Shown: piece by piece, positions 4,163 to 51,621 of the stretch | Layout: every line of letters begins with the position of its first letter | Numbering within the stretch: the first letter of the stretch is position 1 | Program-made: the position numbers and the translations under genes | Notes under the pieces: model-generated | Seen by the model: the letters and a program-made list of their open reading frames with translations, nothing else | Told to the model about the DNA's origin: nothing | Databases searched by the model: none | Assembly: GCA_018343915.1 (NCBI GenBank) | Contig: JABRWF010000001.1 | Span: forward strand, 4,092,001-4,156,000 | Direction: 5' to 3' | Length of the DNA stretch: 64,000 nt | Source of the DNA: Agroathelia rolfsii | Lineage: Eukaryota; Basidiomycota; Agaricomycetes; Amylocorticiales; Amylocorticiaceae

Positions 4163-4274
4163 GCCTTTCATAGCTCTTGGAGACTTGTCCCATCAGATAA
4201 CTTGGATACCACAAACAACACTCGTATTCTCAGTCTTCTACTTCATCTACCCCCTCTACTACTCCCATACCTCA

Positions 4275-14000: not shown

Positions 14001-14170
14001 GCAATCACAAATTAAATGAGGAATGTTGCTTCATATTTGTATTTATGGCCTGTATACGATGCATGAGTGACTACGGGGTTTCGCATGGGGGATCAATGGC
14101 TGTTAATTTTTCATGTAACTCAACTCCTGATGAAAGTCAAGCAAAAAATGTGTAATAAATGGTTTATAAT

Positions 14171-15889: not shown

Positions 15890-16825
15890 ATGCCTATCTA
15901 ATATTCTGGTATTGTTCGTAGTCTTGTTCATGATGCAGGGTAGGCGTTACCGCCGCAAATACCATCTCTGGTCTCCTTCACTACCTCTAATGCAGCACCT
16001 TTCACTCTTTCGCCCTCAACCCAATTGATAGTCGATTCAAGATTCGCTTCATATGGACAGCCTTCCCTACACCAACTCGCCTCTCCGATCTTATGGATGT
16101 GACCGGCTTCTTGTCTCTCTCATCGGTAGTCATAGCATCTTCTTCCCAGTCGACAGCTGCGTATGTATCCTCTATATTCTTGACTCTCAATACTACAGCA
16201 AACTTTGTATAATGGCGATTCCACTGATGAACGATGTCAATTCATCATCTTGGAGAATGTGTACCTGATCTCCAGTGCGGTACCTATTGGAACATGATAG
16301 GGCATACGGTCGTTATTGCAACAAGTGGCTTTGCTACAGTCTGAAAATGACATCGTCATAGAAGAATAGTGCGCAAATTTCGATTCCGTCTGGATCGGGG
16401 TACGATTCTTCCGGATGGGAGACCCTGGGTTTATGCTTGATGCTGAAAGACATTTTTATGAACCAAATTTCTTAGGCTAAAGATAACGGTTTTATTCATT
16501 TGTTCCCATCCTGATAAATCAATAACACGGTGGCTAACGCCTTTTTTGTATCTTCATATTATAACCGATCATTGCATATGTGCATCTTTCGTCAAAATAA
16601 ATGAATTTCACATCCACGTCTCAGATAATTTATGGGATTCGGCGTATCTTAACGGTCCTGACTGGCGCGACCTCTATACTAGGTTTCATTTCCGGCCTCC
16701 ACCATCGTCCGAGGTTGACGGCCTCGTCCCCACCGATCTTCTGAACGAAACGTGGTCCCATACAGCATTTGAAAACTTGCAAACGACAATGGCGTGTCAT
16801 TAGTGCCTGAGATCGATACACCTGG
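15890..16825 (+). pseudogene. GH20 beta-hexosaminidase, interrupted 5' part
   Basis: Translation in shifting frames gives the N-terminal half of a GH20 enzyme: APFTLSPSTQLIVDSRFASY (from about 15,995), SIFLTLNTTANFVYNGDSTD (about 16,165), then GFMLDAERHFYEPNFL in approximate form (about 16,420). An intron-like gap follows, then the best block, INEFHIHVSDNLWDS and YLNGPDWRDLYTRF (16,600-16,690). It ends with VPEIDTPG around 16,802-16,825. Stops (for example TGA/TAG near 16,290 and TAG at 16,801) and frameshifts show it is dead. The text stops exactly inside the conserved VPEIDTPGHS motif, and the missing HSLVISKWKP begins 27.5 kb away at 44,355. Confidence 0.85.
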
Positions 16826-16839
16826 TAGACTATGACACG

Positions 16840-18290
16840 GCACCTCAGGGGACGTCACATATAATCCATGCCTGCTGCCGCTCGACCGATCGCGATGTTA
16901 GCTGCGATGACTAGAATACCCACCGCCAGAGGCGCTGTCGTACCGAGGATCGTGCCTCGATGAGCGCTCGTGATGCAGCGGCTGCGGTGCACCAGGGCCA
17001 TACGGACTCCACTGCGCCGCTGACACCCGCCCTCCATCATGTGAGGAGACAGGCGACATATCCTCCGAACGCTGGCTGAGTAGTAGCGGGGGTGGCAACG
17101 AGGTCTCATGGGCACCACCACCCCTTCGCCCGTCGATGATGACGCTCACTCGGGCGCTCCCATGCCATATAGCGACTGCTAGGCAGCTCCTGGTAACCCC
17201 CGCGGCAATGGCGGCGGGGACGAGCGACGGTGGTGGTGGTGCATTGCGGGCGTCGTCGACACGGGCGAGCGATGGCCAGAGCTGTAGTGCGGATACTGCT
17301 TCGGCGACGGTGCCGAGATGAGCTCGTGTGTACTCTGCATCTGGGATGAGGCCGACATCGGCGCTTGTCCCTTGAGAGGGCGCTGCATGCACGGATCGGC
17401 CGCCATGCCACGCGGAGCATCGTAGGGTGACATCGGCGAGCGGTGAACGTGCATCCGTATCGAGCCCTCGCGGTGGCTCGCCGGCCAATCGACATCCATG
17501 GGCGCCAGAGCTGGATGCGTGGAGATGCGCCTACTGTTGTCGACGTTGATAGGCGGGGACGCGGCGCGGTAACAGAGAGGAGATGAGCCGCGGCCACTGG
17601 GGGAAGGATGTGAGAGTGGTGCGCCGTTATCTACCACACGCGAGTCATTGCGGAACGATGGTCGTGTCGTGCTGCCAGCAAGAGAGGTGGACCCGAGAGA
17701 CCGCTGGGAGGTACGACGGCGTTGGCGTACGCGGTGGGATGTACATCTTGTGGGCCAGGCGCAGCTGGAAGCTGGTTGCCCGTTGCTTGAGCATTCCTCA
17801 GTAACCCGAGACGCTGTGTGATGACCTTGTTCGTGGGGTCGAGCTCGCTAGCGCACGCATAGGCGTCGACGGCATGCGAGATTTGGTTGTTGCAGCTCTC
17901 ATAGAGACTGCTCAGGTCGTACTAGACCTCTGAGATGTAAGGGTTGATGCGGATCGCGCGCGAGTAGGCATCCAGTGCGTCGCGCAGCTGGTACGGCCCG
18001 CCAATCGAGCACCGGAGGGCGGCCATCGCAACAGACGGCCTGTTGATAAGCCTCGTAAGCCTTGTACTTTTTGCCAGCCATGTAGGCACAGCCCAAGAGG
18101 TACCAGCTCTGAGATCTGATAACCAATATTAAAACTGGAAAGCTAATAAGAGCTCATGTTGACGCACCCGCTTCCAAGCTCTTGGTCGAATATTGGATTG
18201 CCGTCTCCTGGTTCTGGAATGTTGACCCGTCCTGATGATACACCCAGCTAAAAGTTACTGCAGCACTTTGGATTATGCAGAATATGTTCC
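16840..18290 (-). pseudogene. CYC8: CYC8/SSN6 co-repressor fragment, copy A
   Basis: The minus strand gives degenerate TPR sequence (YHQDGSTFQNQE, then SWYLLGCAYMAGKKYKAYEA with an intron between). After that come the post-TPR linker (GLLRNAQAT, PGPQDVHPTAYANAV) and the His/Ser/Pro-rich region (MHHHHRRSSPPP, PVSSHDGGRVSAAQWSPYGP). This order is that of the TPR co-repressor Cyc8/Ssn6, partner of Tup1. The N-terminal TPRs and the C-terminal third are absent, and there are several frameshifts and stops (for example within KVLQ-stop-L near 18,250). The low-coordinate end coincides with the GH20 break. The frameshift just after the GPPLLLAA stretch is shared with copy B, so it predates the duplication. 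Confidence 0.8.
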
Positions 18291-19149
18291 AATGCACCCA
18301 GCTACTCGGTATTTTTTTTTTGTTCGTAGATTATGTTGAGGCGAAAAAGGATGAGGATCTGGTTTGTGTTTGCAAAAATCAGGCTGCTTGGCTGCAATGA
18401 TAATAGTCCTATTTTACTTGCTAGTAACCTTTCTTCATGTAGAACAATGTCTCCCACGGAGCCACAAGATGCCAATGTCACGTCGCAATCTTGGATCGAG
18501 CAACGAGACAGCTGACGTCGCCTGAATTAGACCCTGGAAGCTCAAGCTTAGCATTCGCAACGCTGTTCGGAAGCCAAGTATTGAAAGATCTAACAGGCTG
18601 GAAATTACCCTTTTATTCTCAATTATCAGAAAATAGATTTAGTTCATTTTCCAAATACATCGACTAATTTGAGCGTGAACCTGCGTCAGTACCCACCCCC
18701 TTCTTACTCTCCGGCTTTATCAGCCTACGCATCGCATCCAGCCCCGCAATTTCACACCATCTATACTACACCCCACGCCTAGTCGACCTTTCATCCAACA
18801 CTACCGACGTCAGTAAAGAGGTCTAGTCCGACTAAACGTGACACCGTTGCCGCAGTGAAGCCTCGTCACAACCGCCTGTCCTTTCTAAACCATGATCGCC
18901 TCTGCTGCTCTCGAGCTCGTATGATGATAGTCTCGGACTCCACTATGATCATCGATGGGGCTGGCCTTTTAGCGTAATAATCTCAAGAGTAGTAGTGCTG
19001 AGTGGCAGTGAGTGGACGCCCACGGATAAGAAGAGATGTATTATAATCGCTAGCTCTGGTCCGTCCTCCCTCTTCACGCCAGCAAAGAGTTGCTCATCCA
19101 TCCACGCAAACACTGTCGTATAGCTTTCCATAATCTTCGGGGTAATATC
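18291..19149. other. Unit A spacer where unit B carries the SNF2 fragment
   Basis: The first 80-100 bases (T-run, then TTATGTTGAGGCGAAAAAGG) match the start of the corresponding spacer in unit B (31,640 onward). The rest does not obviously match the SNF2 fragment present there. I find no gene. Confidence 0.4.
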
Positions 19150-20215
19150 CTTGCACCCTTACTTCGATGTATCCTATACCATCCATCAAACCAGGCAGGC
19201 CGTTTTCCATACTCCCGTTGTGACCGATCCAGAGACGAACGCGATCCCATCTCCGCCCACGGAGCTGCTCAAGTATTTTTTTTTACCTCCCTCTGACACG
19301 TGCCTAGGCATGCGAGGGGGACAACGGCAGAGTATCGGCGCATTTTCATCTTTTGAGAGGGTGAAATATCTCCTTTTCATTTATTTGGTTAAAATTGCTT
19401 CTTTTTTTGCTAAAGGGGCTTTTTTCTACAGTGCTCTCTCCCAAAATGCCCAAATACAGTAAATAAGACCATGTGCGCGCTCAGGACGATGATACTCGAT
19501 GAGCACGGACTAGGCTGAAAGCCAAAGTCATCGCCTTCGTCTTCACAAAACTATGTCATACCGAATCGTCAATATTCTGCAAGTCCGCATCTGAACCAGA
19601 CGGCGAGAGCGTGACTAAATCCGAGGCCGAATATCAGAGGATGAGGAAGGTCTTCTCCTTGGTCCGCCTAGCACAAGCAACCGCGGCAACGGCACAAGAG
19701 GGAGAGGAGAGATCGCCATCGCCAGTACTTGCACAGTCCACTGAAAGAAATTTTGTGACGCCCTCTGGATTTCTCTCGCTGGAAGTTGATTACAACCCGA
19801 GACATGAGTCCAGCCGCGTTATAGGCACCATTCGCCTATCCAAGGACTTTTGTAAAGCGTTGATGTTCGAGCGAAGCGGGCAGATTCAGCTATTCCCATT
19901 AAAACTATTGACACTCTTGCGTTTATGATTTCCGAGATCGCCCGCAAGCCGTTTGTAAGCAGCCGAAGTGGTGAGATCGTAGAGTGTATGCGTTCATTTA
20001 GGGAGGTTGCTATCAAAATGTGTGGTGTAGATGAAATCTCCCATTGCCTTGATGTAGCCATGTTTATACTTTTTCATTTTTTCTTTTACGGGGACGCGGC
20101 AGAAAAAAAAAATGAAATTGGTTCCTTTATATTCTCAATGAGGAGTGTAATGGTTTCGGAGACCTCTAGAACAAAGTCCGCGGTGCTGATTGGGAGTTGA
20201 GTCTCATCAGCCATT
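19150..20215 (+). pseudogene. KU80: Ku80 C-terminal fragment, copy A
   Basis: Broken matches to the DNA-end-binding protein Ku80 and to the better copy in unit B: IHQTRQAVFHTPVVTDPETN and PPTELLKYF (19,180-19,280), then YNPRHESSRVIGTIRLSKDF (about 19,790), and RKPFVSSRSGEIVECMRSFR (19,940-20,000) followed by an intron-like gap. The ARKPFVSS stretch needs a frame change near 19,920. The pieces correspond only to the last third of the protein. There is no continuous frame and the gene is dead. Confidence 0.75.
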
Positions 20216-22211
20216 TGGGGGTGGAGAAAGTAGCTATCACCCGGGCGACTCGAGCGTTACGGAGGTGAAGGGTTAAGAAGGCGTCTGCCCGACTTTGATC
20301 CTTTCAAGAAGCACTGGCTAGGGCTTATATCTTGGACGATTAGGCTAATCTGTCTAATACAACTTTCTTACTGATAGCTTACATTCAAGATAGTAAAATT
20401 GTTTGCACAATCATCAAAATATAATTTGCATTTTTTATTTTATTTTTATAGTTTACTCCCCAGGTACATCTGGCTCCCCTCTGAGCTAATTGATACCGCA
20501 AGCGACTTGGGTGTAAATTTACGCCATTATCCCTCTCAAGTTTAAAAAGCTTATGCCCAGCAGCCATCGCTGCAATCTTACACGATTTAGATAAAACTCA
20601 GCCCCCAGGCCTCGCTAGATCATCAACCCCATGGATCGCATCCCCATCTGACACCATCAGCACCACATCCATTCCCGTAAGGAGACCCAACCAGGCCGGG
20701 CGAGACGAGAAACACCATGCAGCAGTTGAGCGCGGCTATATGGTCACGTTCCTCCCCAGTCTGGACCGCGATCATCTTGGCAGTTTTGAAGCTCGTCAGA
20801 AAATATGCGGTGGTTTGAGGCTCAACTGACGTGATGACTGACAGGGACTTGTCTCCTAGCATAAATAAACTGTGGGACGGTACTGCTGAACAGCGCCGTG
20901 AGCGAGCGAGCCAACGCTTACGGGAACGACGACGCGTATATTGGGCCACTGATACGTCTTGTTTCTTACCGACTGGATAGTTGCTCGCCGATCTCTGTGT
21001 GTTGCGTAACCCTCCGAAATTCTAGCGGGGATAATCCTCATGGCCCCTCCCACAGTGTCCTGCACCAAGAGTTAGTTGGACCTGGGCAATGATAATGACG
21101 CTGTTTCTACTGCTTCAACTACTGCGAGCGTGACCGCATCATTGTAAGTCAATTGTACTGAGTAAATGATTGCTAGCACCCTGGGTGCGACGATGTATGC
21201 TCAGCGTCCGGTTAACAAAACCATGCACGCTACTGCACGGCCGTAGTTCCTGTCTGTGGCAGCGTACAACACCACCGCATTGCCTAATAATGTAATAGTG
21301 GTACCTTTGATATTATGTAGCTTTTGATGTGCTTGGAGGCAGATAGAAGCGTTTGCATGGAGCAAGGTAGCTCATGATGCACCCGGGCACTTGAATACGG
21401 ACAGACCAAGCCGGAAAGACTTATATTTAGCAGATACGCAAGCTCTCGGGCTATTATCGTCTTATCGCAGGGTTAGGGTGTAGCCTGGTAATATGCGGCT
21501 ATGAAACTCGAGTAGAATCACTCCAAGTTCTGGGCCATAACCCCTTGAGTGGTCTTTGGTTGTAGATCCGAGATTGGGCAGAGGGCTTTTCGTAATAACT
21601 CATCATCAACTAAAGTCTTGTGATTGTCAGTGTATCAGCGTGCGGATCAGGCGAGGCATTAGCGCTCAACATGTAGTGCGCTAATGAAATAAATGCTGCA
21701 TACCTGCCCGTGATTGCATTGTAGACTATCTATACATCAACTGACCTGATGCATCAAGACACTGATATTCACAATAGTAAAAATAATCAGTTTGACTTTG
21801 ACAACCTTAACGGATGGCAGAGGATAATGATATCGCGGGAGCTTTGCCGTCCGACTTGGGCCAATTAGCTTCCGATGAGTGTCGGGACTCGGTGATCATG
21901 CAAGAAAAAAGCGGTTGCACCGGACCTTACAACTTTAAATTTACCACAATCAACAAGTAATACTCAACTCCAACGCATCTGATGATATGAACCCGTGCAA
22001 CTGCATAGTGACTTTACGAATACCTCATACAAGATGCATGTCAAGGGTCCATAAATTTTTTGGAATGATGCCGCCCATAACGCCCTTGTCCTGTGTATAC
22101 ATCATTCAATCCACTGTCTTGTCAATCATAATCGTGTTTGAGGCATGCTAACAGCGCCCGTCTCTGATTACTGAGAAGCATTTGCAAATGACTTTATGAG
22201 CAAAGAATCCA
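20216..22211. other. Unit A spacer and NLR promoter region
   Basis: About 2 kb with no intact gene. It aligns by eye with 34,727-36,660 in unit B, best in the last 300 bases before the NLR start. Near 20,620-20,800 (minus strand) a short coding-like remnant (TGEERDHIAALN) matches the unit B stretch at 35,217-35,400 (PDGEHHHSRAELRRIISCSL), so a further gene fragment of unknown identity may lie here. Confidence 0.45.
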
Positions 22212-22219
22212 TATTTATA
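22212..22219 (+). promoter_or_regulatory. TATA box of NLR gene 1
   Basis: TATTTATA, 73 bases before the ATG at 22292. The same motif stands 74 bases before the ATG of NLR gene 2, so the core promoter is conserved between units. Confidence 0.65.
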
Positions 22220-22291
22220 CTCCTATGCAGCAAGCAAGCGATGGTCCAAGTTCTCCACCACCCTAGGAAACTCTCTTCGTCCTGTCTAGGA

Positions 22292-25200
22292 ATGTTGCTT
22301 TCTCGTTTGCTCAGATCTCGTAAACTCAAGCATAAGAAAACACCAAGCGTGTCGACTATGGAATTTGTAGCTGATAAAGAGACAGTAGAGCTGTCTGAAC
22401 AGCATCGCAAGTCTGAAGATGGGACAGCAACGAAGGAGATGAAAACCACCTGGCCAATCTTCATGGAAGTACTGAGAACAGTCAAGGAAGCATCCGACGC
22501 GATTCCACCCCTCATGATTGCTTTAACGGGACTACTTGAATTATTAGAACAGTATGAAGTAGGCGGTCATGGAATCAATCCAATTCTATACTAGCCAGCT
22601 GATTCATTACCAGATAGCAGGAGATATTCAGGACGGCCTCTATCTTTTATATGAAAAGCTAGAGGCACTACATCTGATCGTGAAATGTCACCAATGCCCA
22701 CCAGTACCAAAGCCTGTCGAGAAGCGTTTAAAAGGACTTGGGGAGTGAGTAGAATTGAAACTTGTGATGTATATCATTCCGCTAATCTCGAAACTACTTT
22801 TAAATAGCTGGATAAAATCAGTTACGACATCAATCGAAGCCCAGACGTCGCGTTCGCCCGCCTATTGGTTCTTCGACATCCCAGAAAATCGCAAGCTTGT
22901 ACTTGAGCTCTTAGGGTTATTAACATGGGCCATTGACTTGTTTGCGGTGAGTGTCTCCTTTTTTTCTGTGTACATCACAATGGTAGCTGATATCGATGAA
23001 GCTCGATACCAGCCTTGAAAATGAAGAAAAGTTGAGCAAAGTAGATCAGGTATGATACATTCTTTATGTTGATAGGTGAATAAAGTATTTACTTTTTCCG
23101 CACAGGAACTTGATGATTTGGGTAAGCCATTTTGCAATGCGATCTTCTGTGCATGACCCACAATTTGTTTTAGATATTAGCCGCCTCCACAAGCAGCTGA
23201 AGCCCGTAGATGCAGCCAACTTCAAATCACAGCGGGGCGAATTATGCCTCCAGGGTACGCGGTGCTCTGTGATCGCCGACATCATGAGCTGGTGCATCAA
23301 CACTTCGGGTCCACGCGTGTACTGGCTTAGCGGTACGGCCGGAACAGGCAAGTCTGCCATCGCGCGGACGATCTGTGACAACCTGTTGAAAGCGTCTGCG
23401 TGTGGTTTGCTCGGCGGGAGCTTCTTTTGCTCACGATGGGCATCTGCGGATGAACGAGACATACGACGGATCGTACCTACACTAGCATGGCAACTCTCTC
23501 ATCTAAACAAGAGCTATAAGAAGAAGCTGGTGAGGCGTCTTGAGAGGGACTTGGATATCGTTGGTGCTACGGTCGAAAAGCAGCTACAGGAGCTGATCAT
23601 CAAACCATATCAAGACCAAGAGATACGTATTCCCATGCCATTGATCATAGTAATTGATGCCCTTGATCAAGGTGCCCGAGCGGACGATACAGCGCAGCTG
23701 CTGAAGGCGATAATAGAGCAGGCAGATAAAGCAGAAGTGCCTCTGAAGTTCTTCGTTACAAGCCGACCGGAAAGTTACATTCGATCGCAGTTTGTTGACC
23801 CGTCTCATGCTTCGGGGCACACCGCATTCTTTCTGCAGAGCATCCAGGAATGCTTGGTGCAAGCTGACACCCGCTTATACGTGACGTATCGCCTTGAAAG
23901 GGTCAAGAAGGATACGAAATGTCAGCTTCCAGCCCAATGGCCATCTAAGGAAGAGGCTGAAAGACTCGTTGATCGGGCAGCTAAGCTATTCATCTTTGCC
24001 TTCACTGCTTGCAACTACATAAAAGGTAATCCTTATGACGGTCTTAACAAAGTTATCGAAGCTTCCGGTCGGGATGACAGACCACTAGCAGAGAAGATGG
24101 ACGTAATGTACGCGCTTATTCTGGACGAGGCGACGGACTCGAGCAGTGTCCCTTTGGATGTCATTAGAACTATTCGCAGATGCTTGGTTGTCCTAATCTA
24201 TGCACGAGAAATACTCCCGCTCTCCGCGTTAGCAAGGTTTATAGGGATAGATACTAGGCGTATTCAAAGTGCGGTAGACCAGCTTCATTCATTGATCCTA
24301 ATGCCATCTTCCGACGACGGAGAAATGACAACGCTTCATGTGTCTTTTGGTGACTATCTGGTTGACGAAAGTCGATCTAGGAAACATTTCATCTCCAAGG
24401 ACGAGGCACACTTTACACTTTTGCAGTGCTGCTTCGAAACCTTGGATGCGGACCTTCGGTTCAATGTTGCTCAGGCCTGCACTTCGTTTCTAAGCAATAA
24501 AGACCAGAGACTGACACTGCCTCAACATCTCTTATATGCCGCTACTCGGTGGGCAGACTACGTGCCACAGAATAGCTTACCAGAGCAATCGAAGGTTATC
24601 GTAAGTTGGATCGAAAAAACACTAGTACCGAAATTCCTTTTCTGGCTCGAAGCCATGAGTGTTGCTGAACGGACGGAAGCAATTCCGGATATGCTGCAAA
24701 CGCTATTGTCATTTGTAAAGGTAAATTAATCAAACAAAAATTACGAATCGATATCTGATCCGTAAGAAAAAATGACAGACGACGCCGGACTTGATCCGGT
24801 TCATAGACGATGGGATTGACTTTGCATACAAGTCGAAAGGAGCGATCTCACGGAGCGTGCCGCATATTTACCTCTCTGCACTTGCATTTGGTAGGGATAG
24901 ATCAATGATTAAGGAGAAATTTTGGCCGCAGTATAAAGGCATCGCTAAAATAAAATATGAAGGAACAAATAGATTGAAAGCATGGGAACTTTGCCTAAGA
25001 AAGCATACTTATAGTGTCGATTGTGTGGCCTTTTCACCTGACGGCAATCGCATCGTCTCTGGATCTTATGACAACACGGTGCGAGTATGGGATGCTCACA
25101 CCGGTCAGCCCACCATGCCGCCGCTGAAAGGACATACCAGTTGGGTCTATTCTGTGGCATATTCACCTGACGGCAATCGCATCGTCTCTGGATCTTGGGA

Positions 25201-27546
25201 CAACACGGTGCGAGTATGGGATGCTCACACCGGTCAGCCCGCAATGCCGCCGCTGAAAGGACATACCAGTTCCGTCAGATCTGTGGCATATTCACCTGAC
25301 GGCAATCGCATCGTCTCTGGATCTGGTGATTTTAGCGAATCTGACAACACGGTGCGAGTATGGGATGCTCACACCGGTCAGCCCACCATGCCGCCGCTGA
25401 AAGGACATACCAGTTGGGTCTATTCTGTGGCATATTCACCTGACGGCAATCGCATCGTCTCTGGATCTTGGGACAACACGGTGCGAGTATGGGATGCTCA
25501 CACCGGTCAGCCCACCATGCCGCCGCTGAAAGGACATACCAGTTGGGTCTATTCTGTGGCATATTCACCTGACGGCAATCGCATCGTCTCTGGATCTTGG
25601 GACAACACGGTGCGAGTATGGGATGCTCACACCGGTCAGCCCGCCATGCCGCCACTGAAAGGACATACCAGTTGGGTCAATTCTGTGGCATATTCACCTG
25701 ACGGCAATCGCATCGTCTCTGGATCTTATGACAACACGGTGCGAGTATGGGATGCTCACACCGGTCAGCCCACCATGCCGCCGCTGAAAGGACATACCAG
25801 ATGGGTCAATTCTGTGGCATATTCACCTGACGGCAATCGCATCGTCTCTGGATCTTATGACAACACGGTGCGAGTATGGGATGCTCACACCGGTCAGCCC
25901 ACCATGCCGCCGCTGAAAGGACATACCAGTTCCGTCAATTCTGTGGCATATTCACCGGACGGCAATCGCATCGTCTCTGGATCTTTAGACAACACGGTGC
26001 GAGTATGGGATGCTCACACCGGTCAGCCCGCAATGCCGCCGCTGAAAGGACATACCAGTTCCGTCAATTCTGTGGCATATTCACCTGACGGCAATCGCAT
26101 CGTCTCTGGATCTTTAGACAACACGGTGCGAGTATGGGATGCTCACACCGGTCAGCCCACTATGCCGCCGCTGAAAGGACATACCAGTTCCGTCAATTCT
26201 GTGGCATATTCACCTGACGGCAATCGCATCGTCTCTGGATCTTATGACAACACGGTGCGAGTATGGGATGCTCACACCGGTCAGCCCGCAATGCCGCCGC
26301 TGAAAGGACATACCAGTTCCGTCAGATCTGTGGCATATTCACCTGACGGCAATCACATCGTCTCTGGATCTTTAGACAACACGGTGCGAGTATGGGATGC
26401 TCACACCGGTCAGCCCGCCATGCCGCCGCTGAAAGGACATACCAGTGAAGTCAATTCTGTGGCATATTCACCTGACGGCAATCGCATCGTCTCTGGATCT
26501 CATGACAACACGGTGCGAGTATGGGATGCTCACACCGGTCAGCCCACCATGCCGCCGCTGAAAGGACATACCAGATGGGTCAATTCTGTGGCATATTCAC
26601 CTGACGGCAATCGCATCGTCTCTGGATCTTTAGACAAGACGGTGCGAGTATGGGATGCTCACACCGGTCAGCCCGCCATGCCGCCGCTGAAAGGACATAC
26701 CAGTTCCGTCAGATCTGTGGCATATTCACCTGACGGCAATCACATCGTCTCTGGATCTAATGACAACACGGTGCGAGTATGGGATGCTCACACCGGTCAG
26801 CCCGCCATGCCGCCGCTGAAAGGACATACCAGTTGGGTCAATTCTGTGGCATATTCACCTGACGGCAATCGCATCGTCTCTGGATCTTATGACAACACGG
26901 TGCGAGTATGGGATGCTCACACCGGTCAGCCCACCATGCCGCCGCTGAAAAAACATACCAGTTCCGCCTATTCTGTGGCATATTCACCTGACGGCAATCG
27001 CATCGTCTCTGGATCTTCAGACAACACGGCGCGAGTGTTGGATGCACTTACTGGTTGCCTTTCTACACCCCTCAGCACTAACCCACCTAGTTACACCGAT
27101 TCTGGCCCGAGCTCAGTCGCCTTTCCTTATTCCTTGCCTCAGCAACCACATCATTTCGCGCCATTCCAACTTTCAAAAGTTCCATCATTTAATCCTTCTC
27201 CCACAGTCTCAGATCTTCGTGACCTTTTCTCCTTTGACATAGATGATGGCTGGATTAAAGGTCCTAACGGCGAATTACTCATTTGGATCCCAAAAGACAT
27301 GCGGTCTTCGCTGTATATGCCCCGGACCACCCTTGTCGTCAATCAAACTCGCCTGCACCTCGATCTATCGAATTTTGCATATGGAGAGAATTGGGAAAGT
27401 TGTAATCAGGTGTTACCAGCTAACGAATTGGAGTGTTCTCAAGGTATCGTTTTATTTTATATATACGCCTAACTCCATTCCCCTGCTGATTTATTACTAA
27501 ATCGACATTGCGCACCATTATAGAACTCGAACGAATCAAGCCGTAG
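22292..27546 (+). CDS. NACHT-WD40 protein (fungal NLR/STAND), copy 1
   Basis: Eight exons: 22292-22558, 22614-22744, 22808-22946, 23002-23049, 23106-23121, 23174-24720, 24779-27443, 27524-27546. The introns (52-80 nt) have GT/AG ends and consistent phases, giving 1,611 residues. Residues 1-200 are helical (TWPIFMEVLRTVKEASDAIP), resembling the N-terminal signalling helices of agaricomycete NLRs. The NACHT domain has Walker A GTAGTGKS at 254-261 and Walker B LIIVIDALDQG near 357-367, where copy 2 and most NACHTs have DE instead of DQ. A helical region to about 790 precedes 16 WD40 repeats of 43 residues (about 793-1,486) and a conserved tail (GWIKGPNGELLIWIP, ECSQELERIKP). STAND proteins act as self/non-self sensors, as HET-E/HET-D do in Podospora. 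The ATG is the one conserved in copy 2; an upstream in-frame ATG lies 5' of the TATA box. Confidence 0.93.
25001..27056 (+). repeat. WD40 array of NLR 1: 16 near-identical 129-bp repeats
   Basis: Each 129-bp unit encodes a 43-residue WD40 blade with the invariant core SPDGN.IVSGS.DNTVRVW (one unit carries a 5-residue insertion, GDFSES, at 25,321-25,340). Nucleotide differences are few and fall mainly at codons for the same surface positions (after GHTS, after GS, and the Thr/Ala before MPPL). Such homogeneity indicates continuing recombination among repeats. Confidence 0.95.
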
Positions 27547-32985: not shown

Positions 32986-32999
32986 AGATGTGTGAATGG

Positions 33000-34726: not shown

Positions 34727-36660
34727 AAGTGGCGAATATGGGCGACTCGAGCATCACAGAGGTTGAGGCTGAAGAAATATGTCTCTGACTTTCATTGCTT
34801 TCAGGGTGTGCAGGTTGAAGCTTATATGGGTATAGTTATTGGACGATTAGGCTGATCCTATTTAGTACATCTTTCTTACAAGCTAATAGAGAATCGATGG
34901 ACGCATCGACAAAAGTTTTGGTATTGAGATCCGGTTTTCTCTTTTAGGGGGAGTTCCTTCTTTTTGGAAAGTAATAACATCATTCTGAGTGCAGCCGGTG
35001 CTTTGCCTGCATTGCCTTCCTCAGCGCTGTGCTGAGCAGTATGGGCACTAGTGAGCAATAAGGTCTATTAATAAGGCCTGGCATTGCGCAGTGCCTGACT
35101 TCCTCTCTATGTTTCCTGTATCATTTATTTTTTTAGTTCTATTTATAAGACATTATTTTGGATAGAAAACTTGGGTAGTCAGCACACTGGCACTGGCGCA
35201 AAGATTTAATATATTTCTACAAGAGTCTTAACGGACCAGACGACACCCCAAGCACCACCAGCTCATGCACAGCGCGGATTGCCTCCTCATCCATACCTGG
35301 AAGTCCAGCTAGGCTACACGAGATAATGCGGCGTAGTTCTGCCCTACTATGATGATGCTCCCCGTCTGGATTGTGGTTGGCCTGGCAGCTATCAACTTCA
35401 GTAGTAGGTCTCAGGCTTTTGACTGAGATAGGTGGTGGACTTATAGCGCGGCAGCCTGGAGAACGGTAGAAGGTGGGACAGTGGAACGCTGCTGTTGCCT
35501 CGACCACCGTAAAGTCTGACTTGATGATGGTAATCACCGTCATAGTGCACTGCGGCAGCCCTAGGCTCAATGACCGCTCAAGCCCAAGGGAACGATGACG
35601 TATGCTCAACACCCGATCAATGCGGCCATGCGCACTGCATGACCGTGGTTTCTATCCGTCACAGGATATACCATCGGCGAACAGTTTGCTATCCTGACAA
35701 TGGCATCTTTAATATCTTGCAATGCTGCCGTGCTGAGAGGCAGACCGAAGCGCCCGCAAAAAAGAGCAGGGAAGGTGGTCCATGATGCACCGAGGATCTT
35801 GAATGGGGGTAAGCAAGATTTGTATTTGAGCTAGATGGCAGATACGCCTAACCCTCGGGCTATCGCATCGTCGAGGCGCCCGAACAGGGCTAGGGTGCAT
35901 GGTAGTAATGTGCGGCCCGGCTGTAGAACTCCAGGGTGGTGATTCAAAGTCGTGTTGTACCATGATCTCTCGATTCGGAATGAATTATGTTTCTACTAGC
36001 AAGTTCAAGATCTAGGGTTGGGCAGAGGGGTTTTCATGATAAGCCATTGTGGACTCGGAATTGTATAATTAACGATCAGTATACTAGTGTGCGTATCAGG
36101 CGAGGTAGGTGGTGTGCTGATGACATGCAACCGTAGTGATGCCTGCATGGCCGCCCACTTGTTATCAATAGATTAACTATCATCAAATGATCTGACGAGA
36201 GAGTGATGCATCAGGACATTGACGAAAATAAAATAAAATAAAAAGTCAGGTTGGCTTCGACAAGCTTATCGGAGGACATAGTGGGAACTGTAGATCGCTA
36301 TCGGCGAAGAGCCTAATTCGCTTCCGACCGGCGTCAGGACTCTGCGACCGCACAACAGAAGCGATTGCATCGGACTCCAGCTTTACTGGCATCATCAATG
36401 AGGGCAGATTCTGATGCATCTGATGACTTGAGCAAGTACAACTGCATGATGATTCTACACATCCATCGTCTCGTGCAAAATGCATGTTAAGGGTCAATAC
36501 AATCCTTGGAGCAACGCCGCTCATAATATCCTTGTACTCTGCATATGTCAATTCAATCTAGTGTCTTCTTAATCACCAGCGTGTTTGTGGCATGCTAACG
36601 GCGCCTATGTCTGATCACTGAGAAGAATTCACAAATGATTTTTTATGGGTAAAGACTGTA
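34727..36660. other. Unit B spacer and NLR 2 promoter region
   Basis: Counterpart of 20,216-22,211. A minus-strand frame at 35,217-35,612 ends LPGMDEEAIRAVHELVVLG, which looks like real protein; the homologous stretch in unit A is corrupted. I cannot name it. The last 300 bases align well with the NLR 1 upstream region. Confidence 0.4.
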
Positions 36661-36668
36661 TATTTATA
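36661..36668 (+). promoter_or_regulatory. TATA box of NLR gene 2
   Basis: TATTTATA, 74 bases before the ATG at 36742; same motif and spacing as in NLR gene 1. Confidence 0.65.
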
Positions 36669-36741
36669 CCCCTACAAAGCAAGCAAGTAGCAGTCCAAGT
36701 TCTCCACCATCCTAAGCAGCTCTCTTCATTCTATCCAAAAA

Positions 36742-39700
36742 ATGTCATTTTCTCGTTGGCTAGGACCTCTAAGGCCCAAGCACCAGAAAACTCGAAGCGC
36801 GTCAACCACCAACCTTACAACCGATGAAACCGGGTATGAAGATACAGAACAGCCGTCTCCGACTGCGTCAAGCCTGACGGTAGCCAACAATCCGAGAGCA
36901 CCCAAGAGACCGTCATTCCTCAGCTCTCTATCGAAACTGTCCCACAGGTCTCAGGAAGGAAAGTTCAACAAGGCGATAAAAATTACTTGGCCGATCTTTA
37001 AAGGAGTGCTGAGAACGGTCAAAGAAGCATCGGACGCGATCCCACCTCTCAAGATTGCCTTGACGGGACTACTTGAAGTTTTGGAACAGTGCGAGGTAAG
37101 TAGCTGTTAGATTGGCCGAGTATTCTACCAGCCAGCTGATTCGTTACTAGATGACGGCAGATGCTCAGGACGATTTGTCTCATATATCGCACAAGTTAAA
37201 GGCACTGGAAGTTATCGTAAAACGTCACCGACACTCACGGACACCAAAGCACGTCGAGGAGCGTTTACAGGGACTTGCGGAGTGAGTGAGAATATAACTC
37301 ATCTCTCATACCATTCTACTGATTTAGAAACCATTCTTGAACAGTTGGATAGGATCGGTGACGACCTCGATCAAAGCTCAAACGTCGCGCTCGAGCTTTA
37401 ATAGGGTTTTCACTGCTACGGAAGACAGCAAGAACGTGGTGGAGCTCTTAGGGACATTGACATGGGCTATTGACCTATTTGCAGTGAGTGAACCCCTCTT
37501 GATGTACGTCACGTCGATAGCTAACGTTCATGAAGCTCGATACTACCCTTGAAGCCGAAGGACAACTGGACAAAATAGACAAGGTACGACGTATCATTTA
37601 TAATCTTGGGTAAACAGAGGGCTCACTTTGTCCTGATAGAAACTTGACAATTTGGGTAAGCTATAATAAGGTATAATGTTATCAACATAGCTAACGTTTT
37701 GGTCTTAGAGGATCAAGGCCTCCTTGTCCAGCTGAAACACGTACAAGCGGCAAACTTCACTTCACAGCGAGGCGAACTGTGTCTTCTTGGTACGCGGTGC
37801 TCTGTCATTGCTGCCATCATGTCTTGGTGCACCAACCCGGAGGGTCCGCGCGTGTACTGGCTCAGCGGTATGGCCGGAACGGGCAAATCTGCGATTGCGC
37901 GCACGGTCTGTGATAACCTGTTGAAAGCGACTTCGACTCGTTTACTCGGTGGGAGCTTCTTCTGCTCACGACGCGCAACAGCGGAAGAGCAAGATATACG
38001 ACGGATAGTGCCTACGCTGGCATGGCAACTCTCTCAGTTGAACAAGCGCTATAGGAAGAAGCTCGTGGAGCGGCTTAAGCAAGATTTAGATGTCGTTGGC
38101 GCCACGGTTGAGAAGCAGCTGAAGGAACTGATTATCGAGCCATGCCAAGACCCGGAGATACGCTTCCCCAAGCCATTTATTATAGTTATCGATGCTCTTG
38201 ACGAAGGATCACGAGCCGATGACACTGCGCAACTGCTGAAGGCAATACTAGAACAGACAGCCGAAGCGGATGTGCCTCTCAAGTTTCTTGTCACGAGCCG
38301 CCCTGAAAGTCATATTCGCTCACAGTTCTTGGAACCATCGCACGCTGGGGACCATACCACATTTTATCTGCAGAACATCGAAGAAAGCTTTGTGCAAGCT
38401 GACATACGCTTATACGTGAAGAATCGTCTTGAGAAAATCAAAAAGGATCCGAAACATCAGCTCCCAGCTGAATGGCCCTCTGAGGAGGAGGCCGAGAGAC
38501 TTGTTGTCCGGGCAGACAAGCTATTCATCTACGCTTTCACTGCTTGCAATTACATACAGCGCGACCCTTACGACGGTCTAACCAAAGTCATTGAAGCGGC
38601 GGGTCGGGATGATAGGCCGCTAGCAGAAAAGATGGATGAAATGTATGTGCTTATCCTGGATGAGGCGACAAACTCGAGCAACGTGCCTTCGCATATTATT
38701 CTCACCATTCGCAAATGCTTGACTGTCTTGATCTATGCGCGAGAAATCTTCTCGCTCTCCGCCTTAGCAGCACTTATAGACATAGGTATTGGGCGTCTCC
38801 AAAATGCTATAGACCAGCTTCATTCCTTGATCCTAGTACCATTATCAAACGAGGGAGAAGTAACGACGCTGCATGCTTCCTTAGGCGACTATCTAGTCGA
38901 CAAGGACCGGTCTGGAAGACACTTCATCCCAAAAGACGAGGCACACTTCATGCTCTTGCAACGCTGCTTCGAAATTTTAGCTACAAATCTCCGCTTCAAC
39001 GTCGCTCAAGCTAATACATCATTCCTAAGCAACGAAGATCAGGGGTTATCACTGCCTCAACACTTCTTGTACGCTGCAGGTCGGTGGTCAGATCATGTAA
39101 TACAGGACGGTTCACTAGAGCAATCAGTGGCTATTGTCACTTGGATCGAAGAAACACTAGTACCAAAATTCCTTTACTGGCTCGAAGCTATTAGCATTGC
39201 TGAACGGACGGATGCGATTCCGGATATGCTACAAACATTGCTGTCATTTGTAAAGGTAAATCAATCAGACAAATATTATATATGTATGGCTAACCCGTAA
39301 GAAAAAATGATAGGCAACGCCAAATTTGATCCGATTTATAGACGACGCAATTTACTTTACACACGAGTCTAAAGAAGCAATCTCACAGAGTGTGCCACAT
39401 ATTTATCTCTCTGCACTTGCGTTTTGCAGGGATGGATCGATGATAAAAGAGAAGTTCTGGTCGAGGTATAAAGGCATTGGTAAAATGAATTACGTAGGAA
39501 CAAATAGATCAAAGGCATGGGAGCTTTGCCTAGTAAAGCATACTAGTAGTGTAAATTCTGTGGCTTTCTCACCTGACGGCAATCGCATCGTCTCTGGATC
39601 TGGTGATTTTAGCAAATATGACAACACGGTGCGAGTATGGGATGCTCACACCGGTCAGCCCGCAATGCCGCCGCTGGAAGGACATACCGGTTACGTCTTA

Positions 39701-41982
39701 TCTGTGGCATATTCACCTGACGGCAATCGCATCGTCTCTGGATCTTATGACAACACGGTGCGAGTATGGGATGCTCATACCGGTCAGCCCGCCATGCCGC
39801 CGCTGAAAGGACATACCAATTCCGTCTTATCTGTGGCATATTCACCTGACGGCAATCACATCGTCTCTGGATCTTCAGACAACACGGTGCGAGTATGGGA
39901 TGCTCACACCGGTCAGCCCGCAATGCCGCCGCTGAAAGGACATACCAGTTCCGTCAATTCTGTGGCATATTCACCGGACGGCAAACGCATCGTCTCTGGA
40001 TCTCATGACAACACGGTGCGAGTATGGGATGCTCACACCGGTCAGCCCGCCATGCCGCCGCTGAAAGGACATACCAGTTGGGTCTTTTCTGTGGCATATT
40101 CACCGGACGGCAATCGCATCGTCTCTGGATCTGATGACAACACGGTGCGAGTATGGGATGCTCACACCGGTCAGCCCGCAATGCCGCCGCTGAAAGGACA
40201 TACCAGTTCCGTCTATTCTGTGGCATATTCACCTGACGGCAATCACATCGTCTCTGGATCTTTAGACAACACGGTGCGAGTATGGGATGCTCACACCGGT
40301 CAGCCCGCAATGCCGCCGCTGGAAGGACATACCGATTACGTCTTATCTGTGGCATATTCACCTGACGGCAATCGCATCGTCTCTGGATCTTATGACAACA
40401 CGGTGCGAGTATGGGATGCTCACACCGGTCAGCCCGCCATGCCGCCGCTGAAAGAATATACCAGTTCCGTCTATTCTGTGGCATATTCACCTGACGGCAA
40501 TCGCATCGTCTCTGGATCTTTAGACAAGACGGTGCGAGTATGGGATGCTCACACCGGTCAGCCCGCCATGCCGCCGCTGAAAGAACATACCAGTTCCGTC
40601 AATTCTGTGGCATATTCACCTGACGGCAATTGCATCGTCTCTGGATCTTATGACAACACGGTGCGAGTATGGGATGCTCACACCGGTCAGCCCGCAATGC
40701 CGCCGCTGGAAGGACATACCGGTTACGTCAATTCTGTGGCATATTCACCTGACGGCAATCACATCGTCTCTGGATCTCATGACAACACGGTGCGAGTATG
40801 GGATGCTCACACCGGTCAGCCCGCCATGCCGCCGCTGAAAGAACATACCAGTTCCGTCAATTCTGTGGCATATTCACCTGACGGCAATCGCATCGTCTCT
40901 GGATCTTTAGACAAGACGGTGCGAGTATGGGATGCTCACACCGGTCAGCCCGCCATGCCGCCGCTGAAAGAACATACCAGTTCCGTCAATTCTGTGGCAT
41001 ATTCACCGGACGGCAATCGCATCGTCTCTGGATCTGGTGATTTTAGCAAATATGACAACACGGTGCGAGTATGGGATGCTCACACCGGTCAGCCCGCCAT
41101 GCCGCCGCTGAAAGGACATACCAGTTCCGTCAATTCTGTGGCATATTCACCGGACGGCAATCGCATCGTCTCTGGATCTGGTGATTTTAGCAAATATGAC
41201 AACACGGTGCGAGTATGGGATGCTCACACCGGTCAGCCCGCCATGCCGCCGCTGAAAGGACATACCAGTTGGGTCTTTTCTGTGGCATATTCACCTGACG
41301 GCAATCACATCGTCTCTGGATCTGATGACAACACGGTGCGAGTATGGGATGCTCACACCGGTCAGCCCGCCATGCCGCCGCTGAAAGAATATACCAGTTC
41401 CGTCTATTCTGTGGCATATTCACCTGACGGCAATCGCATCGTCTCTGGATCTCATGACAACACGGTGCGAGTGTTGGATGCACTTACCGGTCACCCTTCT
41501 ACACCCCCCAGCACCAACCCGCTTAGTTACACCGATTCTAGCCCGAGCTCAGTCGCCTTGCCTTATTCCTTGCCTCAGCAACCACATCATTTCGCACCAT
41601 TCCAACTTTCAAAACTTCCATTATTCGATCCTTCTCCCACAGTCTTAGATCCTTGTGATCTTTTCTCTTTTGATATAGATGATAGTTGGATCAAAGGTCC
41701 TAACGGCGAATTGTTCATTTGGATCCCAACAGACATGCGGTCTTCGCTGTATATGCCCCGGACCACCCTTGTCATCAACCAAACTCGCCTGTACCTCGAT
41801 CTGTCGAATTTTGCGTATGGAGAGGATTGGAAAAGCTGTAATCAGGTGTTACCTGCTGACGAATTGGAGTGTTCTCAAGGTATCGTTATATTTTATATAT
41901 ATGACTAACTCCATTCCCCTGCTGATTTTTTACTAAATTAATATTGCACGCCATTGTAGAACTCGAACGAATCAAGCCGTAA
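36742..41982 (+). CDS. NACHT-WD40 protein (fungal NLR/STAND), copy 2
   Basis: Eight exons matching copy 1 in number and phase: 36742-37095, 37151-37281, 37345-37483, 37536-37583, 37640-37655, 37709-39255, 39314-41879, 41960-41982; 1,607 residues. Exons 2-6 and 8 have exactly the lengths of copy 1. Exon 1 is 87 nt longer, adding a 29-residue Ser/Pro-containing stretch before the helix TWPIFKGVLRTVKEASDAIP. Walker A is GMAGTGKS (283-290); Walker B is the canonical FIIVIDALDEG (near 386-396). Fifteen WD40 repeats span about residues 822-1,482, followed by the same tail (SWIKGPNGELFIWIP). All exons are open, unlike every passenger gene in the unit. The role should be that of a signalling NTPase sensor in non-self recognition or programmed cell death; the ligand is unknown. 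It is the more conventional of the two copies. Confidence 0.93.
39536..41490 (+). repeat. WD40 array of NLR 2: 15 near-identical 129-bp repeats
   Basis: Same 43-residue blade as in copy 1, three of the units carrying the 5-residue insertion (GDFSKY form, repeats 1, 12 and 13). The linker before each blade differs from copy 1: here LEGHTGYV and LKEHTSSV types occur, and Ala always precedes MPPL. Repeat 12 and 13 are almost identical to each other, suggesting a recent internal duplication. Confidence 0.95.
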
Positions 41983-42954
41983 ATGTGCATAAACGTTGCT
42001 CTTACACTTGGTAATCTTATCAGCCCAGACGCCACTGCATATATTATTCGTGAGAAACATAATTGTCGTCCAGTGGGAATTTATTTTGTTACCTTGTATA
42101 GTATTACTCGCGCCGTCTTTATGCTTTTGCCTTTGCCTTTATCTTTTAGCAATGGATATCTGATATATCCAAAACCCGTTTATGTTTTACATTCTTCTCT
42201 CAGCCATCCGTCTATATACCGTCATAATACGTTGTCTGTTTGGTGATTTGTACATCGTACAGTACTTGTGGTATATTTTCCTGATTCATCTGATGTAAAT
42301 ATCACAAAATTGAATTTGCGTTGCTCCTTAACTTGTACTCGTGTGTATCTTTCTGATCTCAACGGCCTACGGCGCCACGACAAAATGGAGTCAGAGATCG
42401 GAAGCGACAGCACATTAAGCTGTATTAAAGATTGTAATATAAACAGCCCAAGGCCTTAGAATAATAGTGGTTGCGAAATGTAGCCCAAGTCGACGGTCCT
42501 CATTGGCTTTTATGATCCGTTAAATTCAAAGAAAAAAAAGAATTTGATTTAGAGTAAGAACAGTAACTATTCATCGTCATATACATGAATGTAAGGAAGA
42601 GAAGAGGAAACAAGCGGGAGATTCAGAGGTGAAAAGAATAGCTTAGCTATAGTAAAAAGAGAAGGGATAGAAAGAACCATCGCATATCAGAATAGATTAT
42701 CAATTCACATGGATCATCGTAAAGAGTTGAATGAAAGAGCTAGAAGGAAAGAAAAAGGGAGATGGAAAATATATGCGATATAAACATATCATGAAGAGGG
42801 GAGAAACGAGGAGAAGCGAAGAACAAGAACACATACACAACAAACACAAGAAAGACTCCGAATTCAAGAACGCGCATCACCACAGAATGCAGACTCCCGG
42901 CAAACGAAAAACAAAATACACACACACCGCCCTCCATCATCTTTTCTTCATTCT
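41983..42954. other. NLR 2 3' flank
   Basis: Collinear with 27,547-28,552 and without a gene. It leads directly into the 3' end of CYC8 copy C. Confidence 0.5.
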
Positions 42955-44335
42955 TTACACCGACGCCTCAACCTTGGGAAGCGTTTGTACACCACTACCG
43001 CCATTGTTGCTGCTCCCAACCGGGCTCGGCGAGCTCATCACCATCGTCTGCGTCGTACCCGGCCCCGGGCTTGGCCTCGACTGCGAACGCTGGATCGCCG
43101 CTGCCGATGCAGCAGCTCCATTGGGCCTCTCCCGCTCACGAGGCGACATGATGCTGCCGCGCTCACGCTCACGCTCGCGATCGCTGCTCGTAGGCCCATT
43201 ACGGTCACGATCCTGTGGCGAGTACGTGATGCTTGGCTGGCGCGAGTGGTTATCGCTTGCGCTGCGACCGCGGAGAACGTTCTCCCCGCGAGATTCGCAT
43301 GAGTCAGAAATATGCTTGTCGATGTGCATCCGATTGTCTAAATGTCCTCGGTCGTCAGAAGGGCCTGGAGAGGCAGGCGGAAGTGTAGCAGTTGGCGGAA
43401 GAGCGATCGCGTTGTTGTTGTTGCTGCTGCTGTTATTGTTGTTATTGTTGGCATTGCTGCCATTGCTGTCACCACCAGCATTACCCACCGGGCGCGGATG
43501 AGGCGACAACGCGGACGGCAACGTGGGCTGCATCGCCTGGCTGGCCGGTGGTGGTGGTGGCGGCACCGGCGTCTTCGACTGCCGCGGCGAGAGCGAGTCC
43601 GCACTCGGCTGCGTCCTGAACGGGATTGAAGATGGCCTGCTCGATGGTCCTGGGCTGCCACCACTGCTTGATGGCGCCGCCGACGTGCGCTCGGGAGACG
43701 TTTCAGAGTGCATGACGATATCTCGGTCGATCCGTGACCGCTTTGCTATCCGTCAATGCTGTCAGATGCCGGACTGCGCGGGCGCTTGATCCCTTGTGGA
43801 GAGTGCCTGCTGCCATTCGACGACACCAAGTCACGCGCATACCGCGATGGCGAGCCCATCGAGCACGTGGGAGACTCAGGTTTGGACCCAGACGGCGGCG
43901 GGGGCAGGATATCATCGGGCGGTGAGCGTGTAGAGGTGCCACGCGAGATTCATCAGCATCTTCGCCACACCGTCGTCGTAGTCCTCGTCGATGATGCGGA
44001 CTGGTGGGCGCAGGTGCACGGGCGATGGCTGTATGGCCGACGGCGGATGCGAGCGCGAGCTGCTGCCGGGAGCGATGTCGGACACTTTGGGAGACAGCGC
44101 GTTGAGTGCAGGGGATGGAGGGGCTTGGGTTGTCTGTCGGTCATTCGACGATAATGCTGGTGGCTCGCCACGGAACGAGGACGAGAACGATGAGCTCGGT
44201 TTGGATGGTATCGAGGATGCCGGCGCCGGGGAGGGCATACTGGGAACCATCGCATTCTTCTTCTGCTGTTACCCCGTCGACCGGCCGGATGGATGGGCTC
44301 TATCCTATAGGCCTGGACTTATACTATGTCCATGA
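42955..44335 (-). pseudogene. CYC8: CYC8/SSN6 C-terminal fragment, copy C
   Basis: Collinear with the open C-terminal block of copy B but broken. The first part (from MVPSMPSPAPASSIPSKPSS near 44,250) runs into a stop at about 43,912; a second frame from 43,713 runs to the stop at 42,955 and ends LPKVEASV. Deletions relative to copy B are visible, for example in the Asn run and near 43,290. The fragment ends at the unit edge, immediately before GH20 resumes. Together with copy A it would make one CYC8 piece. Confidence 0.82.
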
Positions 44336-44352
44336 GTAGAAGTAGAAAGTGG

Positions 44353-45472
44353 AACATTCGCTCGTCATTAGCAAATGGAAGCCTCAGATGGCTATCGAGG
44401 GTGAACCCGACAGTCTCAACTTGACCTATCCGGAGACGATACCTACCATCAAGAGCATCTGGGAGACGTTCTTGTCCTGGTTGGATCTCAAGAAGTTAGT
44501 ATCGGCGTGGATGAATACAAGAGCAGCCTTGCAAATGACTATATTTCGTTCATTGACGAGATGCCTGGCTTCTTGGCCGAGAGGGAGAAAAGCATGCGGA
44601 AACAGGGAACACGTGAGCCTAGCTCGACGCAGTCATCTCGAAGAATGTGACGATACAGCACTGGGCCTTCCCAGATGAGGATATTCTTGTCCAGCTGCTC
44701 GATGCTGGTTATCGTGTCATCAGCTCCGAGCAGGCCTTCTTCTATTTGGAAGGCAAGGTCCCGGAGGAATCTGGCTTCCCTCAAACATTGTCCCCCTCGC
44801 TGCTCTTTTCCGGCGCGCCAAACGGTGCAGGATGGGCGCCCAACATATTTTCCACCTCGGATGCGTCGAATAACACATCTCCCTTCTCATCTGGACTCAG
44901 AGGCACGATTTTTCCTCTGCAGAATGACTGGGGGCCCAATTTAAGCACGCAACTCGAGATCTACTACCGTGAGTTCGAGCAGGTCTACGGCACACTGAAC
45001 GCTAAAGCGCCTGGGAAAAATCTGAATTGGGTCGTGCAACCTGCTCATGGAAATTAAGCGTTTTCGTATCCCGTCGTGTCGGGGCTTCAGAAGACGGCTT
45101 ATGAGTCCGTTGGTCCGCCTTACACACTTTCCTTTATCATCCATCCCTCCGAAGCCTATAATCCTACAGAACTTACAGCGGAGGGGATTCGGCGATATAT
45201 CTTCAGAACCTTCTTCGCTAGGTCGATTTGCCCTCTTGGGGCTGTCTGAGTCTATTCCTATTGGAAAAGTTAAGGCGGTTAGCGTACACGCAACTCTTGA
45301 ATACACCTATGCAGTCGTCGGAAGGGAGACACTGTGGTGTACAGCAAGCCTGGACATTTGTGGGGATTATACCGCGCTTGCGAATATGTCGTTTGCAGCG
45401 CCGTCTCAGCTTGTTGGATCTGCTTCGTTTAGGGGCACATTGACCAATGTGACATTGAGGCTGGGGATATAA
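44353..45472 (+). pseudogene. GH20 beta-hexosaminidase, interrupted 3' part
   Basis: Resumes with HSLVISKWKPQMAIEGEPDS at 44,355, exactly the residues that follow VPEIDTPG in GH20 enzymes. Then come LNLTYPETIPTIKSIWETFL, a shifted frame with SIGVDEYKSSLANDYISF (normally GADEY, holding the catalytic Asp-Glu pair), NVTIQHWAFPDEDI, GYRVISSEQAFFYLEGKV, and LRGTIFPLQNDWGPNLSTQL. An internal deletion joins EIYYR to EFEQVYGTLN, removing the region expected to hold WAG. The end, SFRGTLTNVTLRLGI, has the family's usual C-terminus with a TAA at 45470-45472. At least two frameshifts are present. With 15,890-16,825 it makes up one GH20 gene. Confidence 0.88.

Positions 45473-51580: not shown

Positions 51581-51621
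<41 letters not shown>

Follow-up and report, generated by a model that had tools for sequence, protein, structure and literature searches.

The stretch of DNA analysed here, called the window throughout, is a 64,000-bp segment of contig C1 of Agroathelia rolfsii (C1:4,092,001-4,156,000), from a genome of 37.67 Mb in eight contigs. Within the window, a gene for a family 20 glycoside hydrolase (GH20, a beta-N-acetylhexosaminidase) is interrupted between positions 16,825 and 44,354 by an insert of 27,528 bp (16,826-44,353). The insert carries two open genes for NOD-like receptors (NLRs) and is absent from the homologous site on contig C2, to which the C1 site was aligned base by base. It is probably a rearranged copy of a host locus and not a cargo-bearing element. 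Its contents correspond to an NLR locus 0.7 Mb away on C1, with the two parts of that locus in exchanged order, and from this arrangement it was most likely made as a segmental copy by way of a circular DNA intermediate; both the circle and the pathway that joined it to its target are inferred. Since the anatomy fits a segmental duplication of this kind, a cargo element is not needed to explain it, and the event resembles a rare rearrangement of host DNA and not a new mobile element.

The GH20 gene provides the frame for this reading. A preliminary description, made from the letters of the window, had proposed that the GH20 reading stops at the codons for VPEIDTPG (16,825) and resumes with HSLVISKWKP (44,355), and this holds: BLAST places window 15,161-16,825 at positions 10-1751 and window 44,354-44,966 at positions 1752-2366 of a single C2 gene (L001), that is, at neighbouring bases. 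The 5' part of the gene with its upstream sequence (15,161-16,825, plus strand) is 84% identical to L001 10-1751, and the 3' part with its downstream sequence (44,354-45,913, plus strand) is 82-91% identical to L001 1752-3423. The same description had suggested a search for an empty site; one was found on C2, where the GH20 homologue has an unbroken frame of 526 amino acids across the motif and reads ...ACACCCGG|ACATTCG... at the site. With the break placed at GG|AC, no target bases were lost and none gained. The flanks are collinear as well: the left one matches in four pieces spanning 8.8 kb (window 8.0-16.8 kb and C2:4,067,808-4,076,556, 74-86%), the right one at 93% (window 48.5-51.5 kb and C2:4,080,833-4,083,821). 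Because the partner chromosome thus holds the empty site, the observation is stronger than the window alone could have made it. The C1 copy differs from C2 by 14 indels in its coding stretches, 13 of them not multiples of three, and exon 2 shows a synonymous divergence (dS) of 0.277 and a non-synonymous divergence (dN) of 0.077; it is an old pseudogene and not a cleanly split gene. Its best named protein relatives, among the best 120 of 536 matches, are 61% identical and come from Coniophora puteana and Dichomitus squalens, and the nearest protein relatives in general are from Agaricomycetes.

We take C1 and C2 to be homologous chromosomes, in an assembly that contains two haplotypes, because genes for the chaperonin TCP-1 form collinear pairs between contigs and because stop-free Cyc8, Ku and HSA-gene places occur once each on C1 and once each on C2. 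The TCP-1 pairs comprise two with equal spacing on C1 and C2, three on C6 and C7 and an apparent pair on C3 and C8; one C3 gene is unpaired, and C4 and C5 have none. A haploid genome with a paralogous GH20 gene on C2 was considered and is ruled out by the collinear TCP-1 pairs. Another way to obtain such a structure is an assembly error in which reads from the home array were misjoined into GH20. Repeated arrays do misassemble readily, and the structure is known here from the assembled sequence. However, the insert differs by about 2-35% from the other copies, both of its edges map to adjacent positions in a single gene, and the C1 GH20 copy bears frameshifts of its own, so that a misjoin is most improbable.

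What the edges cut is itself informative. A minus-strand gene similar to the Cyc8/Ssn6 corepressor, with a codon-position substitution pattern typical of coding sequence, runs continuously across the internal junction of the insert at 29,970, while both outer edges, 16,825 and 44,353, fall in the middle of Cyc8. Cyc8 sequence is present in three places, all on the minus strand: a pseudogene 5' half that includes the TPR part, cut by the left edge (16,826-18,271; 83% to the intact Cyc8 of L059/L060, with a P0003 match); a copy with disrupted frames across the junction (28,556-31,251); and a pseudogene 3' half cut by the right edge in the same phase as the left half (42,850-44,353, from alignment and tree). 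The two edges cut Cyc8 at the same phase to within 8 bp, a coincidence expected by chance in about 0.13% of cases for a 13-kb unit if the breakpoints are assumed to be independent. At this position Cyc8 is unbroken in seven other copies in the genome (five in arrays, two intact), and one further array copy is gapped there. Stop-free Cyc8 genes are found at C1:4,812,827-4,815,253 and C2:4,545,223-4,547,676; they are 91% identical to each other and have broken copies in the nearby arrays. In the tree, both halves of the junction copy are sister to the intact Cyc8 of C1 with a support of 100, and the right-edge half is sister to the distal pseudogene of C1 with a support of 95.

An element with its own termini was rejected as the best reading: the edges lie in a gene that is continuous in seven other copies, and neither a transposition gene, in the frames scanned against Pfam, nor terminal inverted repeats were found. 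The preliminary description had noted the lack of a transposase, captain recombinase or Helitron helicase, and the Pfam scan agrees, with no family of these kinds listed for any of the 65 stop-to-stop frames (65/65) of at least 100 amino acids lying wholly within the insert; shorter frames fell mostly outside the scan, and for two WD40 frames the families considered are the best 25 of 52 and the best 25 of 55. Its further proposal, an unnamed cargo element made of a tandem dimer, found no support, as the edges are inside Cyc8 and the contents fit a permuted host locus. Starships carry a captain, a DUF3435 tyrosine recombinase, at one end; no DUF3435 family was listed for the 65 frames. The insert resembles a Starship in being a large, cargo-bearing fungal insertion, but it differs in that no captain was found, in its basidiomycete-like rather than Pezizomycotina host and in having a permuted host locus as its content. 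Helitrons encode a Rep/helicase, insert between A and T, begin with TC and end with CTRR; here the target is GG|AC, the insert begins TAGAC... and ends ...GTGGA, and no helicase family was listed. No exact inverted match longer than 7 bp links the 200-bp stretches at the two ends, where the longest has that length, and no clean target-site duplication is seen at the GH20 edges, where about 2 bp are shared with the target at each.

A dedicated element could still have termini in the middle of Cyc8, with its recombinase acting in trans or lost (Starship-, Crypton- or Helitron-like). Both edges do fall at one short GGTAGAAC-like sequence, which resembles the product of a single crossover between attachment sites. 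The same listing without a transposition gene, the 7-bp limit on inverted matches between the ends and the continuity of the cut gene in seven other copies all speak against it. Moreover, among the best candidates, no place besides the home loci and the insert has matches to Cyc8 and to an NLR less than about 50 kb apart. Such an element is thus given very little credence.

Internally, the insert consists of two units, A (16,824-29,969) and B (29,970-44,340), that align head to tail. The preliminary description of two head-to-tail copies of one unit stands as far as this alignment goes, but the units are diverged: they are 82-87% identical over the NLR and Cyc8 part, while the middle is about 65-74% identical or unalignable, and an HSA-domain gene fragment in unit B (32.2-33.0 kb) has no visible counterpart in unit A. 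A recently formed tandem dimer is ruled out, since the NACHT exons of the two units differ with a dS of about 0.98, compared with 0.077 between NLR A and its home copy on C1; A and B were therefore already distinct before the insertion. Their likeness goes back to the donor locus, which is a tandem array in its own right.

Broken pieces of nuclear genes had also been reported in the insert, correctly so: besides Cyc8/Ssn6 they are Ku80, with weak Pfam scores, and the HSA-domain gene. Unit A has a decayed middle region (18,688-21,513, plus strand) that matches array copies on C1 and C2 and includes a relic of the Ku80 C-terminus near 19,856-20,197 (Ku_PK_bind, E 0.005, below the Pfam cut-off). 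The fragment in unit B (32,224-33,012, minus strand; HSA, E 7.5e-11) belongs to an STH1/SNF2-like gene, called STH1-like here. It is followed by a Ku80 relic at about 33.2-34.9 kb with adjoining sequence (33,012-36,128, plus strand; Ku domain, E 1.8e-4, just under the Pfam score cut-off), of which 33,012-35,291 is 86% identical to C2:4,657,678-4,659,973. Ku matches above the Pfam cut-off are found on both contigs, at the far end of each home array.

The home locus on C1, which has a counterpart on C2, reads in the orientation of the window as STH1-like, Ku80, NLR, one or more Cyc8 pseudogenes, NLR and Cyc8. The insert follows it in two runs. From 21,000 to 31,000 the window is collinear with C1:4,822,542-4,813,084, at 88-98% in each 500-bp bin, except that bin 26.0-26.5 kb is almost all gap because the numbers of WD40 repeats differ. 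From 32,224 the window continues instead at the other end of the home locus and again descends through STH1-like, Ku80, NLR and Cyc8 pseudogene, most clearly on C2, where the coordinates followed are 4,663,160, 4,659,973, 4,656,827, 4,656,117-4,653,641 and, for the Cyc8 pseudogene, from 4,649,777. A home order X-Y has thus become Y-X, and inside the insert, at 31.9-32.2 kb, one outer end of the locus meets the other; the join can be placed no more finely than 31,900-32,223: the match to the Cyc8-upstream region ends at about 31,899, its last piece being weak, and the STH1-like fragment starts at 32,224. Elsewhere, matches to the STH1-like fragment were found only at C1:4,851,801-4,852,615 and C2:4,662,349-4,663,160, which are the ends of the home loci, and at no array junction. 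The source of NLR A and of the junction Cyc8 is the locus of C1 itself, where an open NLR gene (L063, frames of 520 and 740 amino acids) adjoins Cyc8.

The outer donor ends joined inside the copy, together with outer edges that fall at one Cyc8 position within 8 bp, fit the signature published for circular intermediates. They also bear on the main alternative, in which linear copying, either by template switching (microhomology-mediated break-induced replication or fork stalling and template switching) or by capture of a linear array fragment, would have placed two home pieces side by side in GH20. Template switching is compatible with the roughly 2 bp of microhomology at both edges and with the stretch of about 324 unassigned bp at the internal join; gaps like the one of about 2.4 kb at 33,012 would fit as well, and a common source copy for the two Cyc8 halves lacks backing from the tree. 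Linear copying does not, however, predict that the copy should end at the Cyc8 position where it began, to within 8 bp in a 13-kb unit, nor that precisely the outer ends of the locus should be joined. We regard it as an unlikely, if the most serious, competitor.

Several observations count against a circle drawn from the C1 locus. The circle is deduced from the sequence of one genome. The left Cyc8 half groups apart from the home copy of the right half, in a weakly supported placement. The C1 home locus is now about 40 kb long and has further pieces, of Cyc8 pseudogene and of the middle region, that are absent from the insert, so the donor was then shorter or the copy was trimmed. Both home loci also contain about 2.4 kb that the insert lacks at 33,012, and no source was traced for the approximately 324 bp at the closing junction. 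A C1 origin of unit B is at best tentative, because unit B is nearer to C2 (86%) than to the present distal unit of C1 (81%) over Ku80 and because what is left of the distal NLR of C1 is truncated (82% over about 345 bp).

By the circular route, which we still favour, the donor on the C1 haplotype would have had the order STH1-like, Ku80, NLR B, Cyc8 pseudogene, NLR A and Cyc8. This locus would have been copied or excised as a circle, joining the STH1-like end to the Cyc8-upstream region at what is now 31.9-32.2 kb. The circle would then have opened inside the middle Cyc8 pseudogene, and a break in GH20, at a distance of 0.7 Mb, would have captured it with about 2 bp of microhomology and left the target intact, as end joining would give. 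GH20 would have decayed later, while both NLR genes stayed open and the repeats of their WD40 sensor turned over.

The time of the insertion can be estimated relative to the split between C1 and C2. If a working GH20 gene is assumed to have a dN/dS of about 0.08, the excess dN implies that the C1 copy has been free to decay for about 0.45 of the time since the split. Dividing the dS between NLR A and its home copy (0.077) by that of GH20 (0.277) gives 0.28, and branch lengths in the tree give 0.38 and 0.16 for the two Cyc8 halves. These estimates are rough, and gene conversion may have made some of them underestimates; their one point of agreement is that the insertion came after the haplotype split, yet is not recent.

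That each unit carries one intact NLR gene, as first described, is confirmed by open NACHT-WD40 frames and Pfam matches. Gene A (22,292-27,469, plus strand) has its ATG at 22,292, a NACHT exon at 23,080-24,726 and a WD40 exon at 24,776-27,469 with 16 WD40 stretches (Pfam NPHP3_N/NACHT and WD40). Gene B (36,742-41,905, plus strand), delimited by Pfam and alignment, has its ATG at 36,742, a NACHT exon at 37,660-39,297 and a WD40 exon at 39,314-41,905 with 15 WD40 stretches. GT-AG introns are common to the aligned NLR genes, including A and its home copy, in an alignment examined by eye. Of the N-terminal region, the two frames scanned, 22,175-22,591 (A) and 36,691-37,107 (B), have no Pfam match. 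Positions 22,450-24,720 of gene A are 96% identical to the home copy at C1:4,818,783-4,821,053 and 73% to the C2 counterpart, and the fullest relative of gene B, at 82%, is C2:4,653,641-4,656,117, which is known from its position and identity.

Between the NACHT exons of A and B, dN is 0.161 and dS 0.984; the ratio of 0.16 shows that the NLR genes have been under past constraint. Between A and its home copy there are 40 non-synonymous differences over 1185.5 sites and 26 synonymous ones over 356.5 sites, a ratio of about 0.46. The WD40 repeats are nearly identical within each gene save at a few sites, and there the series of residues differs strongly among A, B and the home gene. A NACHT domain followed by such repeats, with a few highly variable sites, is the architecture of NLRs with high internal conservation, and A and B are of that type, with a putative function in non-self recognition. 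The home arrays hold broken NLR genes with a frame change in the NACHT exon (C2:4,616,815-4,618,442) or with frame changes and stops (C2:4,631,075-4,632,731), and one that is truncated (C1:4,847,213-4,847,545), but the open gene beside Cyc8 on C1 means that home copies are not all broken.

The NLR genes beside the two intact Cyc8 genes (C1:4,816,556-4,820,336 and C2:4,551,621-4,554,091, the latter also known from its position and identity) seem far more diverged from each other than Cyc8 itself at 91%, judging by the block of gene A that is 96% like the C1 gene and only 73% like the C2 gene. This suggests receptor alleles that may have been kept for long or replaced. Further NACHT-WD40 genes with long open frames are found on C4 (607 kb), C5 (3,757 kb), C7 (3,470 kb) and C8 (813, 825, 1,180 and 1,192 kb).

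Outside the insert, the window has ordinary genes, with matches to a BAG domain (4,161-6,701), a GYF domain (49,331-52,423), a formyl transferase (53,349-54,170) and MFAP1 (59,272-59,805). At 10,287-10,612, where the alignment of C1 to C2 breaks, lies a repeat of about 325 bp, which for that reason is probably small and non-autonomous, carried by C1 and lacking at the C2 site. Another 20 full or partial matches to it (71-87%) are spread over contigs C2 to C8. Two same-orientation copies of another family (about 66-69%) lie at a distance on either side of the insert, at 11,536-14,367 and 61,266-64,000, with relatives at C1:4.71 Mb, C2:4.09 Mb and C2:4.44 Mb; three frames tested gave no Pfam match over the cut-off.

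The type of event is already known from human and yeast genomes, and the interest here lies in the NLR cargo and its specificity to one haplotype. Segmental duplications through circular DNA in humans convert an order A-B/C-D into B-A/D-C, with the ancestral ends joined inside the derivative (PMC7450558). There, the ends of the derivative are contiguous at the donor, and the breakpoints that were resolved show microhomology and small indels only. The insert has the same exchanged order, with the donor ends joined inside; it differs in being fungal, in having a tandem NLR array as its donor and a coding exon as its target and in the roughly 324 bp without traced origin at the closing junction. 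In wine yeasts, copies of the 17-kb region B of Zygosaccharomyces bailii are explained by an extrachromosomal circle and nonhomologous recombination, with 2-3 nt shared at four junctions and a target that is generally unchanged (PMC3053389). The insert shares with region B the microhomology-sized sharing at its edges and the intact target. Region B is foreign, has a functional replication origin and occurs in eight forms among 28 strains, whereas here a locus native to the fungus was inserted once, in one genome. As for the cargo, the HNWD/NWD receptors of Podospora anserina have WD40 repeats that are highly conserved internally save for a few highly variable sites (PMC12222747). The NLRs of the insert have the same combination of NACHT and near-identical WD40 repeats, but HNWD proteins carry a HET domain, whereas the insert genes are from a basidiomycete and their tested N-terminal frames match no Pfam family.

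Among the top matches in open-licence papers, none was seen to describe the relocation of NLRs through circles in a fungus. The locus described here offers a worked case, complete with both haplotypes, the donor region, the empty site and both edges, in which NLRs leave their tandem cluster as a permuted copy and land in another gene. More speculatively, and with low expectation on our part, circle-borne relocation might recurrently move NLRs out of a decaying home array, the departed copies staying intact while their WD40 sensor changes quickly, so that each haplotype would have its own set of receptors and the two nuclei of one mycelium would differ in recognition. If circles do carry NLRs around fungal genomes, they would offer a source, open to testing, of differences in receptor sets that arise rapidly and are specific to a haplotype.

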